A DNA stretch of 64,000 nucleotides from Desulfarculus sp. GTDB taxonomy: Bacteria > Desulfobacterota > Desulfarculia > Desulfarculales > Desulfarculaceae. Position numbers and translations under genes: made by a program. The stretch covers positions 62,001-126,000 of the forward strand of contig QZKP01000072.1 in NCBI GenBank assembly GCA_003605055.1. Direction: 5' to 3'. The notes beneath the pieces were generated by a model. It was not told the DNA's origin, did not search any database, and was given only the letters and a program-made list of their open reading frames with translations. Below, in pieces: positions 12,604 to 48,935 of this stretch (the stretch's first letter is position 1; every line of letters starts with the position of its first letter).

Positions 12604-13449
12604 TCACTCGAAGCGGACCTTGCTCCATTCCAGGCGCAGGCACACGAACTCCTCGCCCTCCAGGACCCAGGCCACCTCGGCCTGGTGGGGCACCAGGAAG
12701 CCGCGGGCCTTGCGCCAGTCGCGGTAGCGCACCACCCAGGGGAAGGGCTCGAAGGAGCCGTCGGGCATCTGGCGCTGGCGGCCGGGGGTCTCGAAGCGCT
12801 GGGGCAGGCCGTCCGGGCCGAAGATGAACACCCCGCCCAGCTCCAGCCCCGGGCCGGTGAGCACGGCCCAGGCGCTGTTGTCGCCGGCCGCCTCCCACTT
12901 CAGGTGCGGCCCGGGCAAGAGCGCCGGCGGAAAGATCACCGCCTCGGCCAGCCAGCGCTGCAGGGCACCCAGGCCCAGCTCGGGCGGGCCGTCGGCGCCG
13001 GCCAGGGGCAGCCAGCCCCAGAGCATGGCCGCCAGGCTGCCCCGGCGGTTGCGCAGCAGGTCCCTCACCTCCAGCCAGACCAGGGGGAACAGGCGGACTC
13101 GGGCGCTCCAGACAAAGCCCGGCGGGCTCAAGGACCACACCTGCTGGGCCGTGAACTTGCGCCAGGCCTGGCCGGGCCGGCCGCGCAACGAGCCGCGCAT
13201 CTCCACCCGGGCCAGGCGCAGCGGCGGCAGGGGATAAGGCAGGGCCCGCTCCAGATAGCGCCGCACCATTGGCGGCAGGCGGGCCAGGCGCGAGGCGTCG
13301 GCCTGGGGCGGCGCGGCCAGCTGGATCAGCCGCTCCTGGGCCTGCCGGGTCTCGGCCCCGAAGCGCCAGAGGCCCAGACCCGCGGCCAGGGCCCAGGCCG
13401 CCACCAGGCCTCCGAGGACGATCAGCAGCCACTTCACGGTGTTAGACAA
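12604..13449 (-). CDS. DUF6544/DUF6920-type membrane-anchored protein
   Basis: A 281-residue protein starting at a TTG with GGAGGAG upstream. One N-terminal membrane helix (WLLIVLGGLVAAWALAAGLGLW) anchors it. The soluble part begins with LPPMVRRYLERALP and contains MRGSLRGRPGQAWRKFTAQQV and the C-terminal RYRDWRKARGFLVPHQAEVAW. These features match a domain of unknown function found in many bacteria (DUF6544/6920). It lies 53 nt upstream of the hydrolase gene on the same strand and may be co-transcribed with it. Confidence 0.65.
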   Translation of the reverse strand: MSNTVKWLLIVLGGLVAAWALAAGLGLWRFGAETRQAQERLIQLAAPPQADASRLARLPPMVRRYLERALPYPLPPLRLARVEMRGSLRGRPGQAWRKFTAQQVWSLSPPGFVWSARVRLFPLVWLEVRDLLRNRRGSLAAMLWGWLPLAGADGPPELGLGALQRWLAEAVIFPPALLPGPHLKWEAAGDNSAWAVLTGPGLELGGVFIFGPDGLPQRFETPGRQRQMPDGSFEPFPWVVRYRDWRKARGFLVPHQAEVAWVLEGEEFVCLRLEWSKVRFE

Positions 13450-13534
13450 GATGGGCTCCTCCGGCGGCCGGCGCGGACGGCGATATTACGACTCTACCTA
13501 TTTCAAGATACACATCTCAAAAAAATTTTTACAC

Positions 13535-13564
13535 TTGACAATTTTAAACGGACGCTGGTATACG
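13535..13564 (+). promoter_or_regulatory. Promoter of the trp leader-trpB2 unit, with palindromic operator-like site
   Basis: A consensus -35 TTGACA (13535-13540) is separated by 18 nt from TATACG (13559-13564). The -10 lies within GTATAC-G-GTATAC (13558-13570), an operator-like near-palindrome that could bind a repressor. The region is strikingly AT-rich for this genome. It drives the leader peptide and trpB2 downstream. Confidence 0.7.
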
Positions 13565-13590
13565 GTATACAATTTACGGAGCAAAAAGTC

Positions 13591-13671
13591 ATGATTTTAC
13601 GGCAGCAGGGCATGGTCGTTCGCTGGTGGTGGCGCTGGCAGCCGCCGGGCCGGGGTCCGTCTGTGCTCTGA
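13591..13671 (+). CDS. trpL: Tryptophan attenuator leader peptide
   Basis: A 26-codon frame, too short for routine gene finders, preceded by GGAG 9 nt before the ATG. It encodes the run VVRWWWRWQPPG: codons 12, 13, 14 and 16 are TGG (13624-13632 and 13636-13638). It lies between a consensus promoter and an intrinsic terminator, directly ahead of a tryptophan synthase gene. This is the architecture of ribosome-mediated attenuation: a ribosome stalled on scarce Trp-tRNA leaves the downstream antiterminator free to form. The run of Trp codons is very unlikely by chance. The role in control is inference, but a strong one. Confidence 0.85.
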   Translation: MILRQQGMVVRWWWRWQPPGRGPSVL

Positions 13672-13725
13672 GCATCCTCCTCGCAAACCTTGAGCAACGG
13701 GCCCCAGCGGGGCCCGCGGCTTTTT
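13652..13725 (+). terminator. trp attenuator: antiterminator arm and intrinsic terminator
   Basis: The terminator is an 8-bp stem CGGGCCCC (13698-13705), loop AGC, GGGGCCCG (13709-13716), followed by CGGC and TTTTT (13721-13725). Segment GGGGTCCG (13652-13659) can pair with the terminator's 5' arm over 8 bp with one G-U pair, giving the alternative antiterminator. A further 6-bp stem (13628-13633 with 13641-13646) covers the Trp codons. These mutually exclusive pairings are what an attenuator needs. Confidence 0.75.
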
Positions 13726-13774
13726 GAGGGTCACGGGTTTACGCCGCAATCAGGATTGACAAAGGAGTTAATTC

Positions 13775-15142
<1,368 letters not shown>

Positions 15143-15155
15143 CTTATGCCCCTAG

Positions 15156-15232
15156 AAGAAACCCTGACGCGGTTTCTTGGCTAACCCCCACGCTAGGCCC
15201 GGCCCCCGCGCAAGCGGGGGCCGGGGATTTTT
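15156..15232 (+). terminator. Tandem hairpins terminating trpB2
   Basis: A first 8-bp hairpin, AAGAAACC (15156-15163) and GGTTTCTT (15171-15178), is followed by a 12-bp GC stem, CCCGGCCCCCGC (15198-15209), loop GCAA, GCGGGGGCCGGG (15214-15225), and then GATTTTT. The second is a classic intrinsic terminator. Confidence 0.85.
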
Positions 15233-15267: not shown

Positions 15268-16212
15268 TTAATCATATGGGCCTAAAAACCGCATCCCGTT
15301 GAAATGGATCAGATGCGAAGGCGCATCTGCGACCCAAACTTCTGACTCCCAAGCGATTTCAGACAAATATTTGGCCATGCTTGCACGATTCGGAAAGGCG
15401 GTCACATATACCAACCCAGGAGACGCTTTAGCGAATAGCCGCGCCAGTTCCTCGTGCCGCTTCCCATCGACCGGGCCATGGCTAGTTACAGCCTCCACCA
15501 GAAGCAGCCAGTCCTTATCCGGATAATAAAGTACGACATCGGGCATCTTGCCATGGGAATCCAAAGTCACACCCAACTTAGACAGCATCGCCTCATCAAA
15601 ATAGCCCCACTTATCACCAGTGTCTCCAGCGTAGATCAGGACACCACCGGGGACATACCGCGAAGCAAAATCCTTGATTATGGCCTTGATTAGCTCGCTG
15701 TGTTCACCGGGGGACAGTTGAAACTCCTTGCCAGGGGCGACGAGGACGGGGATTTGGTTTAAGTCTCGCTCGCGTGCGTAGCGTTCGACAATCGTCTGGC
15801 GCTCGGCTAAGTAAGTCAATAAATTTTCCCCCCACGATGAGTTGCCGTATGTACGTAGCAGATTCAACGTGGCCGGCTCAATCTGATAAACGGCTTTCGG
15901 GCTGTTCACAGGTCTAGCCGGGTCGTCCGGGTTGTAGAGGGCAATTCCAGCGGCAACGAACTGGTGCATTGTCTGCCGGCGCACGGTTTCGCGTGTATTT
16001 GGGGCATAGTTTTTTTGATAGTGCTCCCGCGCCCAGTCCATTATTGGTGTGATTCCCAATAGTGGATTCTCAGCCATCTCCCATTTTTTATCCGGTGTGA
16101 GATTCAAGATAGCCAGTAAACAAAGGGCGGAACGCTCATTCTGCTGAGCACGGGGAAGGCCCAGAGAAACGATAATTTCAAGTGCATTGTCGATGTGGCT
16201 ATGGTTGCTCAT
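15268..16212 (-). CDS. BsuBI/PstI-type type II restriction endonuclease
   Basis: A 314-residue protein matching the BsuBI/PstI restriction enzyme family, whose members recognise CTGCAG and cut DNA. The N-terminal part is a helical domain (SALCLLAILNLTPDKKWEMAEN). The C-terminal nuclease part has PDVVLYYPDKDWLLLVEAV (about 224-242) and SHGPVDGKRHEEL, the likely PD-(D/E)xK-like site, with D225, E240 and K251 as candidate residues. It starts inside the stop of the methyltransferase gene (4-nt overlap), so cutting is made only after methylation capacity. CTGCAG specificity is inferred from the family. AT-rich codons mark it as acquired. Confidence 0.88.
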   Translation of the reverse strand: MSNHSHIDNALEIIVSLGLPRAQQNERSALCLLAILNLTPDKKWEMAENPLLGITPIMDWAREHYQKNYAPNTRETVRRQTMHQFVAAGIALYNPDDPARPVNSPKAVYQIEPATLNLLRTYGNSSWGENLLTYLAERQTIVERYARERDLNQIPVLVAPGKEFQLSPGEHSELIKAIIKDFASRYVPGGVLIYAGDTGDKWGYFDEAMLSKLGVTLDSHGKMPDVVLYYPDKDWLLLVEAVTSHGPVDGKRHEELARLFAKASPGLVYVTAFPNRASMAKYLSEIAWESEVWVADAPSHLIHFNGMRFLGPYD

Positions 16213-17684
16213 AGGATATGGTTTTCAATTTTAGTGTCGATCATAGCCTGAGTCAGTTCTCCGCGCGATTTCGCCCAGCTTCCCAGGCTAGACAGGATTG
16301 CATGGCTGGGGTATTTCATCTGCCTCAAATCTGTTGCATTCACCTGGGTGTGCCCACTAAAAAGCCGAAAGTGATTATCAAAGACCCTGGAATTTAAAAA
16401 TACCGCCAAGCCGCGCACAAGGTCTTCTGGCAGCCCCTTCTTGCAGGCATGGAACACATTTAGATGGTTCTCAAACCCCAAGGCTAGAGCATCCGGGAAG
16501 GCTTCCGGGGCAACCACATTGGCCACGATACGGCGCTTTTCTTCCTTGGAGGAAAATCGGCGGGTCACGACATAGAATCCGGTCGGATAAAGCCATTTTT
16601 CCGTGTAAGCATTTCGCATGATGGCATTCGGCTTTTTGATACCCATTTTCGGCCACTCAATGCCCAGGCCAGCGAAGTGAACTGAGTATAGCAGGGGCAC
16701 GGTTCCCGGCTCCGGCATTTCGCGCAGATGCTCACGCATGCGGAAGTCAACCACCGGCCCGGTAGACACCTCAATTCCCAGGTCGGCCAATGAGTGACGG
16801 ATCACTGGGGAAAGTTCTATGGGGCTATCATTCAGAGACGTCGGAATGTGAACGAAGCGCTCCCTATCGTATGGCATTACGATCCGTTCGAACGGATGCG
16901 CATGAGCCTGATAGTCGGTGAAGGTGTCATCGGTCGAAGTGGAAATTGTCACTTTGCCCTGTTGGCCACCACATTCCAGCCGGATGATAATGTTCTCTTG
17001 CAGCACGCCGTCGTCCTTAAAGGCCTTATTGCGCGATTCGAAAAGGTGTATGTGGCGGATAGCCGCCCGCGCTAGAACAAATTCGCGGAAAGGTCGATAA
17101 TAGGGGCCGTTGCAGAAACTACGCGGAATAATGGCCACTATCTGGCCGCCGGTCTCCATCAGCTCAACCGCTAGCGCCACAAAAGCCGAATAGATATTGA
17201 CGGTCTCAATACCTACCTGGCTGAGCAACCGACGATGCCGTGAATTGCTGTGTATTTTCTTGTAGGGCGGGTTGAGAATGGCATGAGTAAAACGGGGTTC
17301 GGTGGGAAATTGGATTTTATTTAACGAATCTTCAATGAAATCATAGGACAAAACCTTAATCGTCAGAGCTAGCTGGGCAGCATATCCTTCCAGAGTTTTG
17401 GTTAGATACCCTCTCAGCGTATCATCGATCTCATAAGCGGTCGCCGTCACTTCCCTAAACTCGAATGCGCCTTCCGCCCACCGGTCAAGAAACGCCCCAG
17501 TTAGGGATCCAATGCCAGCACCAGCATCGAGCAAGCGCGCAGAAGGCAAGTTGCTGGCGGGAAACAAAGAAGCCATGAAGCGGGCGACCGTGGCGGGGGT
17601 GAGGAACTGGCCAAGCCTCGATCTTATTCCGAGGTCGATGCTGGTGGTTGCTTCTATACGGACTTGTTCAAGTTGCTCTAGCAT
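16209..17684 (-). CDS. BsuBI/PstI-type N6-adenine DNA methyltransferase
   Basis: A 491-residue modification enzyme protecting host DNA from the endonuclease downstream. It has the SAM-binding motif LLDAGAGIGSLTG (51-63) and the amino-methyltransferase motif NPPY (138-141). The N-terminus MLEQLEQVRIEATTSIDLGI and RLGQFLTPATVARFMASLF closely resembles the start of PstI-type methylases, so I chose the ATG at 17684. The frame is open further up to a TTG at 17765, with a GGGGAGG 24 nt before the chosen start, so a longer N-terminus remains possible. AT-rich composition sets the pair apart from the chromosome. Confidence 0.88.
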   Translation of the reverse strand: MLEQLEQVRIEATTSIDLGIRSRLGQFLTPATVARFMASLFPASNLPSARLLDAGAGIGSLTGAFLDRWAEGAFEFREVTATAYEIDDTLRGYLTKTLEGYAAQLALTIKVLSYDFIEDSLNKIQFPTEPRFTHAILNPPYKKIHSNSRHRRLLSQVGIETVNIYSAFVALAVELMETGGQIVAIIPRSFCNGPYYRPFREFVLARAAIRHIHLFESRNKAFKDDGVLQENIIIRLECGGQQGKVTISTSTDDTFTDYQAHAHPFERIVMPYDRERFVHIPTSLNDSPIELSPVIRHSLADLGIEVSTGPVVDFRMREHLREMPEPGTVPLLYSVHFAGLGIEWPKMGIKKPNAIMRNAYTEKWLYPTGFYVVTRRFSSKEEKRRIVANVVAPEAFPDALALGFENHLNVFHACKKGLPEDLVRGLAVFLNSRVFDNHFRLFSGHTQVNATDLRQMKYPSHAILSSLGSWAKSRGELTQAMIDTKIENHIL

Positions 17685-17765
17685 ATTGGCTTTTGGAAAA
17701 CTTGCGCGCCTCCCCTGATTTGTAATCCCGCCAGGACATGAGGAGATAGCTGCCATGGCAGACAA

Positions 17766-37325: not shown

Positions 37326-38084
37326 ATGGCAATCCCCGGGAGCGGAGAGATTCGCGTGAAGGTGGACCTGGAAGAGGCCTTGGACCAGTTGCAGGAGGCC
37401 CGCGCCGCGGGCCGGGAAGATGGCGTGGCCAACGCCCTGTTCGTGGCCGCGGTGGGCTACATGCAAAGGGACCGCCGGGAGGCGGCGGCCGCCGCCCTGG
37501 CCGAGGCCCGGGAGCTCTGCCAGCGGCTGCACAACCCGGCCGGCGAGGGGCAGGTGTGCCTGCGCCAGGCGGCGCTGGCCCAGCAAGAGGGGCAGCCGGA
37601 GCAGGCCCAGGATCGCCTGGCCGCGGCCCTGGCCTGTTTCCAGGCCGCCGCCGACCCGGCGGGCCAGGCCAGCGCCCTGGAGCGCCGCAGCCGCCTGCGC
37701 GAGCAGACCGGCGACCTGGCCGGGGCGGCCGCGGACCTGGAGCAGGCCCTGAGCCTGACCGCGGCGGCCGGCGACGAGGTGGGCCAGGCCTTGCTCAGTC
37801 AGTATCTGGCGCCGCTCTACCGCCGCTTGGGGAGCCCGGACCAGGCCCTGGCCGCCTACCGCCGCCTGGGCCACTTCAGCCAGCGCCTGAGCGACCCCCA
37901 GCGGGAGGCCTTGGCCCTGGTGGGGGTGGGCGCCCTGGAGGCCCAGGCCGGCCGCCGGCCCCAGGGCCTGGAGGCCCTGGCGCGGGCCCGCGAGTTGTAT
38001 CAAAGTCTGGGCCAGCCCAAGCTGGCGGCCCAGGTGCAACGGGAGATGGACCGCCTGGCCCCCGGCGGCCGGGTGGACGGTTAG
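37326..38084 (+). CDS. TPR-repeat protein
   Basis: A 252-residue, all-helical, alanine-rich protein with about five tetratricopeptide-like repeats (QAQDRLAAALACFQAAADPAG, AADLEQALSLTAAAGDEVGQ, QALAAYRRLGHFSQRLSD). TPR repeats serve as protein-binding scaffolds. No signal peptide is seen, so it is probably cytoplasmic. It is divergent from the kinase gene and could belong with it, but nothing in the sequence proves this. Confidence 0.7.
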   Translation: MAIPGSGEIRVKVDLEEALDQLQEARAAGREDGVANALFVAAVGYMQRDRREAAAAALAEARELCQRLHNPAGEGQVCLRQAALAQQEGQPEQAQDRLAAALACFQAAADPAGQASALERRSRLREQTGDLAGAAADLEQALSLTAAAGDEVGQALLSQYLAPLYRRLGSPDQALAAYRRLGHFSQRLSDPQREALALVGVGALEAQAGRRPQGLEALARARELYQSLGQPKLAAQVQREMDRLAPGGRVDG

Positions 38085-48393: not shown

Positions 48394-48935
48394 TTTTTGC
48401 CCTTGCCGGCCGGCGGGATCAGCCCGGCCCGCTCCTGCAGGCGGCGGGTGAGGTCGTCGGGGAACAGGTCTAGGATGTAGCGGCCCCCGCGCACCACGTA
48501 AGGCGCCAGCAGGGACTCCTTAAGCGGGGTGACCGTGGAGAAGGGGTTCATCAACAGGAGCAGGTTGATGAGCAGGTAGGCGATCAGCAGGCCCTTGGCC
48601 AGGCCCACCACCCCGCCCAGGGCCCGGTCCAGGCCCGACAGGGAGCCGGCCATGACCACCCGGTGCATCACCCCGCCCAGGTAGATGAAGAATACGAAGA
48701 TCAGAAACAGGATCAGGCCAAAGGAAACCGCCCCCCACCAACTGGCGCCGTAGCCGGTGACGCGGGCCAGCAGGCCGGCCAGGTCCTGGTAGAACATGGC
48801 GCTGACCACCACCGCCACCACCGCGCCCACCAGGCCCATGGTCTCGCGCACGAAGCCACGCACCAGGGCCCGCACAAAGAAAAAGACCAGCAGGATCAGC
48901 AGACCCAGGTCCAGCAGGTTGGGGGACGACTCCAT
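48390..48935 (-). CDS. cvpA: CvpA-family membrane protein
   Basis: A 181-residue protein with four hydrophobic segments, typical of CvpA (LGLLILLVFFFVRALVRGFVRETMG at the start, then SFGLILFLIFVFFIYLG). CvpA was linked to colicin V production in E. coli and to envelope stress elsewhere; its biochemical role is unclear. First gene of a two-gene unit with mazG. Confidence 0.85.
   Translation of the reverse strand: MESSPNLLDLGLLILLVFFFVRALVRGFVRETMGLVGAVVAVVVSAMFYQDLAGLLARVTGYGASWWGAVSFGLILFLIFVFFIYLGGVMHRVVMAGSLSGLDRALGGVVGLAKGLLIAYLLINLLLLMNPFSTVTPLKESLLAPYVVRGGRYILDLFPDDLTRRLQERAGLIPPAGKGKK

Follow-up and report, generated by a model that had tools for sequence, protein, structure and literature searches.

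The window analysed here, 64,000 nucleotides of Desulfarculus sp. contig QZKP01000072.1 (positions 62,001 to 126,000 of the forward strand), carries a trpB2 gene whose product scores 635.4 bits against TIGR01415 (cut-off 518.85). The upstream neighbour of trpB2 encodes a DUF6544/DUF6920 protein and is divergent, while the downstream neighbour, a BsuBI/PstI-type restriction enzyme gene, lies on the opposite strand and is convergent. An earlier note on this DNA had described the gene as a lone trpB2, and it is indeed a TrpB2 by TIGR01415 and solitary in the window, with the opposite-strand gene and a terminator-like hairpin with T-run downstream of it. Elsewhere in the genome to which the window belongs (G000), the trpB2 query finds a second match, more distant at 33% identity, in C1:33644-34732; it adjoins trpD and was taken for the canonical trpB. 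The reverse strand at 15268-17765 holds, beside the BsuBI/PstI-type restriction endonuclease, a long open reading frame (ORF) that by its look is a candidate DNA methylase.

The interval upstream of trpB2 contains the elements listed in Table 1. The earlier note had read it as a promoter, a leader of 26 codons in which codons 12, 13, 14, and 16 are TGG, an antiterminator arm complementary to the 5' arm of a terminator, and a T-run just before trpB2; each of these was confirmed at its coordinates, and an extended -10 element was found to accompany the TTGACA hexamer. The leader is a short ORF with its own start, a Shine-Dalgarno-like sequence, and tandem Trp codons (TGG at 13624, 13627, 13630, and 13636), a cluster that is kept in relatives. 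Our promoter scan did not report the leader promoter because the -10 sequence TATACG breaks the scan's rule of a T at position 6. When ORFs of 10-60 codons were screened for at least four TGG codons in any five, the leader was the sole match on the forward strand of the window; there was one match on the reverse strand (48713-48877), a short W-rich ORF containing WWARWWRWW, and the 10 first-order Markov controls had none. These controls are lenient, for once three TGG in five codons suffice, the window yields 9 ORFs versus 0-3 in the controls.

Table 1. Positions of features at the trpB2 locus and at related loci; positions without a contig or locus prefix refer to the window.
Feature	Position	Strand	Remarks
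-35 element TTGACA	13535-13540	+	sequence; also 5' of the palindrome in trpB2 regions of genus-mates
extended -10 TGG-TATACG	13556-13564	+	18-nt spacer from -35
palindromic operator candidate TGGTATACGGTATACAA	13556-13572	+	overlaps extended -10; 1 mismatch to TTGTATACNGTATACAA
leader Shine-Dalgarno-like GGAG	13578-13581	+	sequence
leader peptide gene MILRQQGMVVRWWWRWQPPGRGPSVL	13591-13671	+	ATG 13591; stop TGA 13669-13671; 26 codons
candidate 1:2 helix	13623-13633 (over TGG codons) with 13641-13653	+	fold of leader lacking arm 3
antiterminator arm 2, GGGGTCCG	13652-13659	+	pairs with 13698-13705; duplex z -2.4, p 0.027
terminator arm 3, CGGGCCCC	13698-13705	+	both arm 2 partner and terminator 5' arm
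terminator 3:4	13698-13716 (stem 13698-13705/13709-13716)	+	8 G-C pairs, loop of 3
terminator T-run	13721-13725	+	sequence
trpB2	13775-15142	+	ATG 13775; TIGR01415 and NF009057 above cut-off; own AAGGAG 13762-13767
terminator-like hairpin and T-run 3' of trpB2	15201-15232	+	sequence only
GntR-family regulator, L266	G000:C7:31596-32258	-	candidate trp-gene repressor; preceded by 17-bp palindrome
tandem trpD leaders, L223	G000:C1, ATGs near 37617 and 37453	-	Trp clusters and hairpins
DAHP synthase gene with GTATAC site and leader	L245 about 810-1100; L252 about 600-900	+ (L245); - (L252)	PF00793 in L245

Alternative folds of the leader RNA

Arm 2 follows the Trp codons, close enough to the leader stop codon that a ribosome there would reach it, and is complementary to arm 3; the duplex of GGGGTCCG with CGGGCCCC comprises 8 pairs, one of them G-U. 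An intrinsic terminator lies between the leader and the gene. When placed singly on 13652-13724, the antiterminator and terminator helices have predicted energies of -14.5 and -18.0 kcal/mol, with 8 pairs each, and the terminator fold reaches -24.4 kcal/mol (z -3.4), a value equaled by 1 of 200 shuffles. A terminator scan of 13000-14500 returned the leader terminator as its single match; shuffled sequences give 0.6 matches on average, so the match by itself is weak evidence. The fold of the whole naked leader has a z of -1.1, which 25 of 200 shuffles equal. Since the hairpin alone could be due to chance and the naked leader fold is unremarkable, the case rests on the Trp codons and on comparison. 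The candidate 1:2 helix forms in the fold, and 67.6% of cells in a larger fold are paired in relatives (35-57% when slid); of the three predicted helices, the 1:2 stem is the least secure. If a ribosome is placed at codon 16 in a model of the complete RNA, the terminator remains the fold of lowest energy (-31.1 kcal/mol). The antiterminator wins in this model solely before arm 4 is made, and the outcome would therefore depend on timing. Rfam release 15 has no match in the window at the gathering score; two matches fall far below it, with E about 3.

Conservation of the leader and of arm complementarity

The order to which the organism belongs was sampled with 21 genomes. A search at E 1e-100 or better placed trpB2 in 19 of them, at 21 loci in all, and upstream sequence is present at 20 of these loci. 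Our detector called a leader where an ORF of 8-60 codons with two TGG within four codons was followed by a terminator. By this definition, the Trp codons and terminator that the earlier note had proposed to look for in related trpB2 5' regions are kept in 12 of the 20 and absent from 8 (G001, G002, G012, G013, G017, G019, the second copy of G010, and one G020 copy). The leader occurs at all 7 window-type trpB2 loci found in the genus (G000, G004, G005, G007, G008, G009, and G010) and outside it in G003, G011, G014, G015, and G016; one genus member, G006, has no trpB2 match. The leader peptides differ ahead of the Trp cluster, as illustrated by MSKQNPSREKHLWWRWQPPGRGPSAL and MHKTHPGLMNLAWWRWQPPGRGGSAL, and the TGG cluster remains linked to the leader stop and the terminator as the other leader codons change. 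The second trpB2 copy of G010 (L022, on G010:C468), which lacks a Trp leader by the detector, is more distant, at 61% identity.

A wider survey combined named genome records, for which the best 80 of 194 relatives were taken, with a draw of 395 genomes from the phylum, 277 of them with a match; from this draw, the analysis covered 22 loci and 40 stretches that ranked near the top. The 163 loci were reduced to 155 that have a match and at least 150 bases of upstream sequence, 8 being dropped. A leader and terminator were detected in 26 of the 155 upstream regions (25 of them distinct, as L024 repeats L009), compared with a mean of 0.5 per set in 10 rounds of dinucleotide shuffling; because the sample was ranked by likeness to the window's enzyme, this fraction is not a rate for all trpB2 genes. 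Among these leaders are AWWWRW in three Ignavibacteriae records (L040, L046, and L088), NWWWR in a soil record named Bacteroidetes (L050), and leaders in other families of the phylum, such as MWWWQAW in G177 and G201. One of the 26, L052, passed the detector with W residues that look like chance.

No same-strand gene follows trpB2 within 200 bases in G224, G177, G284, and G033; the next gene lies on the opposite strand in the three Ignavibacteriae, and a small ORF begins 80 bases past trpB2 in G219. Within the window's genus, the next same-strand ORF, if any, is 139-278 bases away. In G093 and G153 (L172, L177, and L295), a Trp-rich leader ORF and trpB2 are followed, about 100 bases on, by a TrpE-like gene, so called from the start of its protein; no terminator passing the detector was found in these trpB2 leaders. 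This adjacency could possibly reflect an older linkage.

The earlier note had also asked for covarying alternative stems. In a close alignment of nine sequences, pairing of the antiterminator stands at 84.7% (31-61% in slid registers), and none of its pairs has changed in both partners; pairing of the terminator stands at 87.4%, with two pairs changed on both sides. Column-based covariation was dropped for little variation among the nine and shifts of arm register in G004, G009, and G010; it proved uninformative in the close alignment, and duplex scores with a lineage-swap control took its place. For each leader, the stretch after the last TGG was hybridized in silico with the 5' half of the terminator, leaving out L052 and L024 and so covering 24 of the 26. 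The predicted duplex beats the shuffle mean in 24 of 24 rows and reaches p < 0.05 in 11, many rows being related; p is 0.05 or more in the other 13. The arm-2 region used here was widened after the result with a narrower one was known (p < 0.05 in 6 of 24 rows), the narrower region having missed the arms of L201, L203, L206, and L219, which lie past the leader stop. With one leader per lineage, matched arms average a z of -2.0 (n=12) versus -0.70 for arms swapped between lineages (n=132; Mann-Whitney p 2e-4), and part of the complementarity is explained by base make-up, because swapped pairs also fall below zero. The letters themselves differ among pairs: GGGGTCCG faces CGGGCCCC in the window, GGGAGGCC faces GGCCTCCC in G016, and AGGGGAGGT faces GCCTCCTTT in G011. 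Judged from the duplex scores, complementarity of the arms is kept with other letters across lineages, and in this sense the alternative stems persist.

Trp leaders and palindromes at other genes of the pathway

Trp leaders are not confined to trpB2. Sixteen genomes have a trpE match, and a Trp-cluster leader ORF precedes it in 15 (14 by script, plus G001, with W..W, by eye); the exception, G016, has no Trp leader there and a trpE match of a weaker type. The trpE leader of the window's genome (MFHGG...SYYWWSSPVTV...) is followed by a strong hairpin and a T-run. Sixteen genomes also match trpD, and at least one Trp-cluster ORF was found upstream in 15 of the 15 that could be evaluated, the upstream sequence of G010 being short. 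A second Trp-cluster ORF stands in tandem in 8 genomes (G000, G002, G004, G005, G006, G009, G017, and G019), a count read from the script's list with the upstream letters viewed for four of these genomes. In G000, a terminator-like hairpin follows each of the tandem trpD leaders (SWRWWR and AWRWWR). Judging by the starts of the proteins, the genes presumably run trpD-C-F-B-A, as seen in G007 and G013 only. Because trpE and trpD leaders occur in the same genomes, control of the lone trpB2 would follow the same logic as that of the other genes of the pathway. In G006 and G009, a leader of a DAHP synthase gene, FFYFYYYAPATETVS, carries FFYFYYY where the other leaders carry Trp codons, and its terminator resembles that of trpE; it is a candidate attenuator of the same build, with Phe and Tyr instead of Trp codons. 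Open-access literature, as far as its accessible text goes, describes tandem attenuators for mgtCBR (PMC3641672) and yielded no other paper on such an arrangement.

The extended -10 element of the trpB2 promoter is overlapped by a candidate operator palindrome. Across the 3.6-Mb G000 genome, TTGTATACNGTATACAA occurs with at most one mismatch at two places, one at trpB2 and the other at C7:32326-32342, just 5' of a GntR-family gene; about 0.04 such places would be expected by our own arithmetic, which assumes even base use. With up to three mismatches there are 4 places in G000 versus 1 for a reversed-pattern control, and in most genomes the pattern at this tolerance is little or no commoner than the control. 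The one-mismatch sites of G001 precede trpD and trpE. Upstream of trpE, weaker or half forms occur in G004-G009, G012, G013, and G015; in G010 such a form lies about 410 bases up, and in G017 one precedes a trpE-like start. No site was seen at trpE of the window's genome. At trpD, the script called a palindrome-like form upstream in 11 of the 15 genomes that could be evaluated, and a half-like form, GGTATACAA, was recognized by eye in G000. The palindrome also appears, in a weaker or half form, before the DAHP synthase gene in G006 and G009.

The regulator genes of the 8 genus members, G001, G012, G013, G016, and G017 group into a single 13-member clade (support 99/99). The G009 copy scores 110.6 bits for FCD and 58.7 bits for GntR, both above cut-off; the G000 copy, at 73% identity, is placed by the tree, with the domain scores taken from the G009 copy. 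Each of the 8 genus members, and G001 as well, has the palindrome ahead of its GntR gene, whereas the other 4 of the 13 clade members (G012, G013, G016, and G017) lack it there; the regulator is probably autoregulated in the genus. Among the 19 trpB2 genomes, 12 have both the clade and a palindrome at trpB2, none has the clade alone, 2 have the palindrome alone, and 5 (G002, G003, G011, G019, and G020) have neither, which gives a Fisher p of 0.0018 that ignores kinship and rests on palindrome calls made partly by eye, with up to three mismatches allowed in G001. The two with the palindrome alone, G014 and G015, are 70% and 54% complete and have no GntR match at E 1e-20. Searches for a TrpR homologue (PF01371) found 0 in 21 genomes, with the control giving a signal in 2 of 14; this agrees with the available text of PMC5343134, which has TrpR in gammaproteobacteria but in no other proteobacterial class.

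Like palindromes are found in other settings. Several genus members, including G000, carry them near a gene that we take, from the start of its protein, to be a livH-like permease gene (L110, L111, L112, L113, and L257); other genes beside such palindromes were named in the same way. In addition, GTATACNGTATNC occurs elsewhere in G002, G003, G011, and G019, all without the regulator's clade. The idea that GTATAC palindromes are operators for Trp genes only was set aside on account of such sites at other genes, also in genomes lacking the clade.

A model for control of trpB2 by tryptophan

By its anatomy and conservation, the trpB2 leader is a ribosome-mediated Trp attenuator, and we consider it very probable that a classical attenuator of this type and a repressor operator together lie upstream of trpB2. 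When charged tRNA-Trp is scarce, the ribosome would stall at the TGG codons 12-16 and cover arm 1, leaving 13652-13659 free to pair with 13698-13705; this pairing would block the terminator, and trpB2 would be transcribed. When Trp is ample, the ribosome would reach the stop at 13669 and cover arm 2, and the 3:4 hairpin would end the RNA near 13725. Given the established size of the ribosome footprint, the geometry suits both states: a ribosome on codons 12-16 would leave 13652-13659 free and one at 13669 would cover the arm. We infer the stalling, the termination, and the response to Trp from the known mechanism. The proposal in the earlier note that trpB2 is controlled by the supply of Trp gains support from the leaders kept in part of the relatives and from the alternative stems.

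The frequency of terminator-like matches in shuffled regions and the unremarkable fold of the whole leader would suit an incidental leader ORF, with the hairpin acting as an unconditional terminator or marking where another transcript ends. This explanation is very improbable, however, given that the TGG cluster, the leader stop, and the terminator are co-conserved amid changing leader codons, that leaders far outnumber those in shuffled upstream regions, and that matched arms are complementary. It is scarcely credible that the leader acts like TnaC, whose known features we used for comparison, with the peptide stalling on free Trp and inducing trpB2 at high Trp. A Trp-containing leader alone fits this model as well as attenuation, but clusters of 2-4 TGG codons by an antiterminator arm and an intrinsic terminator suit starvation control of a biosynthetic gene, and the peptides of the genus vary except at the Trp codons and in the stretch that encodes arm 2.

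Ribosome-mediated attenuation would be joined by a second tier, to which we give less weight, in which a GntR/FCD-type regulator would bind TTGTATACNGTATACAA-like sites: over the -10 element of trpB2, near trpE and trpD in many relatives, and at the DAHP synthase gene in two genomes. A substantial possibility, although one we lean against, is that the palindrome is a mere variant promoter, that the GntR/FCD protein acts elsewhere, and that trpB2 is under attenuation alone. The -10 element forms part of the palindrome, like sites precede livH-like and other genes and occur in four genomes without the regulator's clade, and the pattern at three mismatches hardly exceeds its control in most genomes. 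Arguing for an operator instead, both half-sites are kept, slightly altered, where the leader has been lost (L010, L012, and L013); the closest matches in the window's genome are those at trpB2 and gntR; and clade and palindrome co-occur, by calls made partly by eye and uncorrected for kinship. The palindrome at trpB2 and gntR, the clade match, and the lack of a TrpR homologue make two-tier control likely, as in the E. coli trp operon but with an unrelated repressor, the repressor part being what we infer from sequence. The earlier claim of an attenuator in front of a lone trpB2 thus holds as far as it went; it was incomplete in that trpE and trpD share Trp leaders and that an operator candidate overlaps the -10.

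In E. coli, the trp operon has a leader with tandem Trp codons, alternative helices, and a TrpR operator in addition to the attenuator. The locus described here likewise combines a short tandem-Trp leader, predicted 2:3 and 3:4 helices with a candidate 1:2 helix, and a candidate operator at the promoter; it differs in its solitary trpB2, in the lack of a TrpR homologue among 21 genomes, and in its GntR/FCD candidate repressor. Much comparative work on attenuators has been published in subscription journals. TrpR and attenuation are both mentioned in the accessible text of PMC5343134, and the open-access literature searched, which includes few such journals, yielded in its available text no GntR repressor of trp genes. 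It yielded one other trpB2 attenuator, the candidate Trp attenuator before the trpBA operon (trpB2A) of Corynebacterium diphtheriae, according to the accessible part of PMC1262725. Both cases place a candidate Trp attenuator ahead of a second-trpB unit; that of C. diphtheriae, an actinobacterium, is a trpB2A operon, whereas the gene studied here encodes a TIGR01415-type TrpB2 without trpA. TrpB2 is usually described as an indole-scavenging enzyme whose gene lies apart from the trp operon (PMC2700814 and PMC11535334, available passages). The present enzyme is of the same kind, its gene being likewise away from trpA-trpB1, and has a leader, whereas the available passages of these papers mention no Trp-responsive leader (the terms 'attenuat' and 'leader' are absent from PMC2700814).

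The attenuator itself is of a known kind; what is new is its association with a solitary TrpB2, with a Trp regulon of several units, and with a probable GntR/FCD operator. We give an even chance to the broadest reading, a two-tier Trp (perhaps wider aromatic) regulon in which an autoregulated GntR/FCD protein would replace TrpR at TTGTATACNGTATACAA, separate attenuators would govern the lone trpB2, trpE, and the trpD unit (there frequently as a tandem pair), and TrpB2 would be a Trp-supply enzyme and not a mere scavenger. A Trp-codon attenuator on a lone trpB2, with sequences that differ by lineage, suggests that cells treat TrpB2 as part of their Trp supply, and the operator points to a candidate repressor of the Trp pathway outside the TrpR family.
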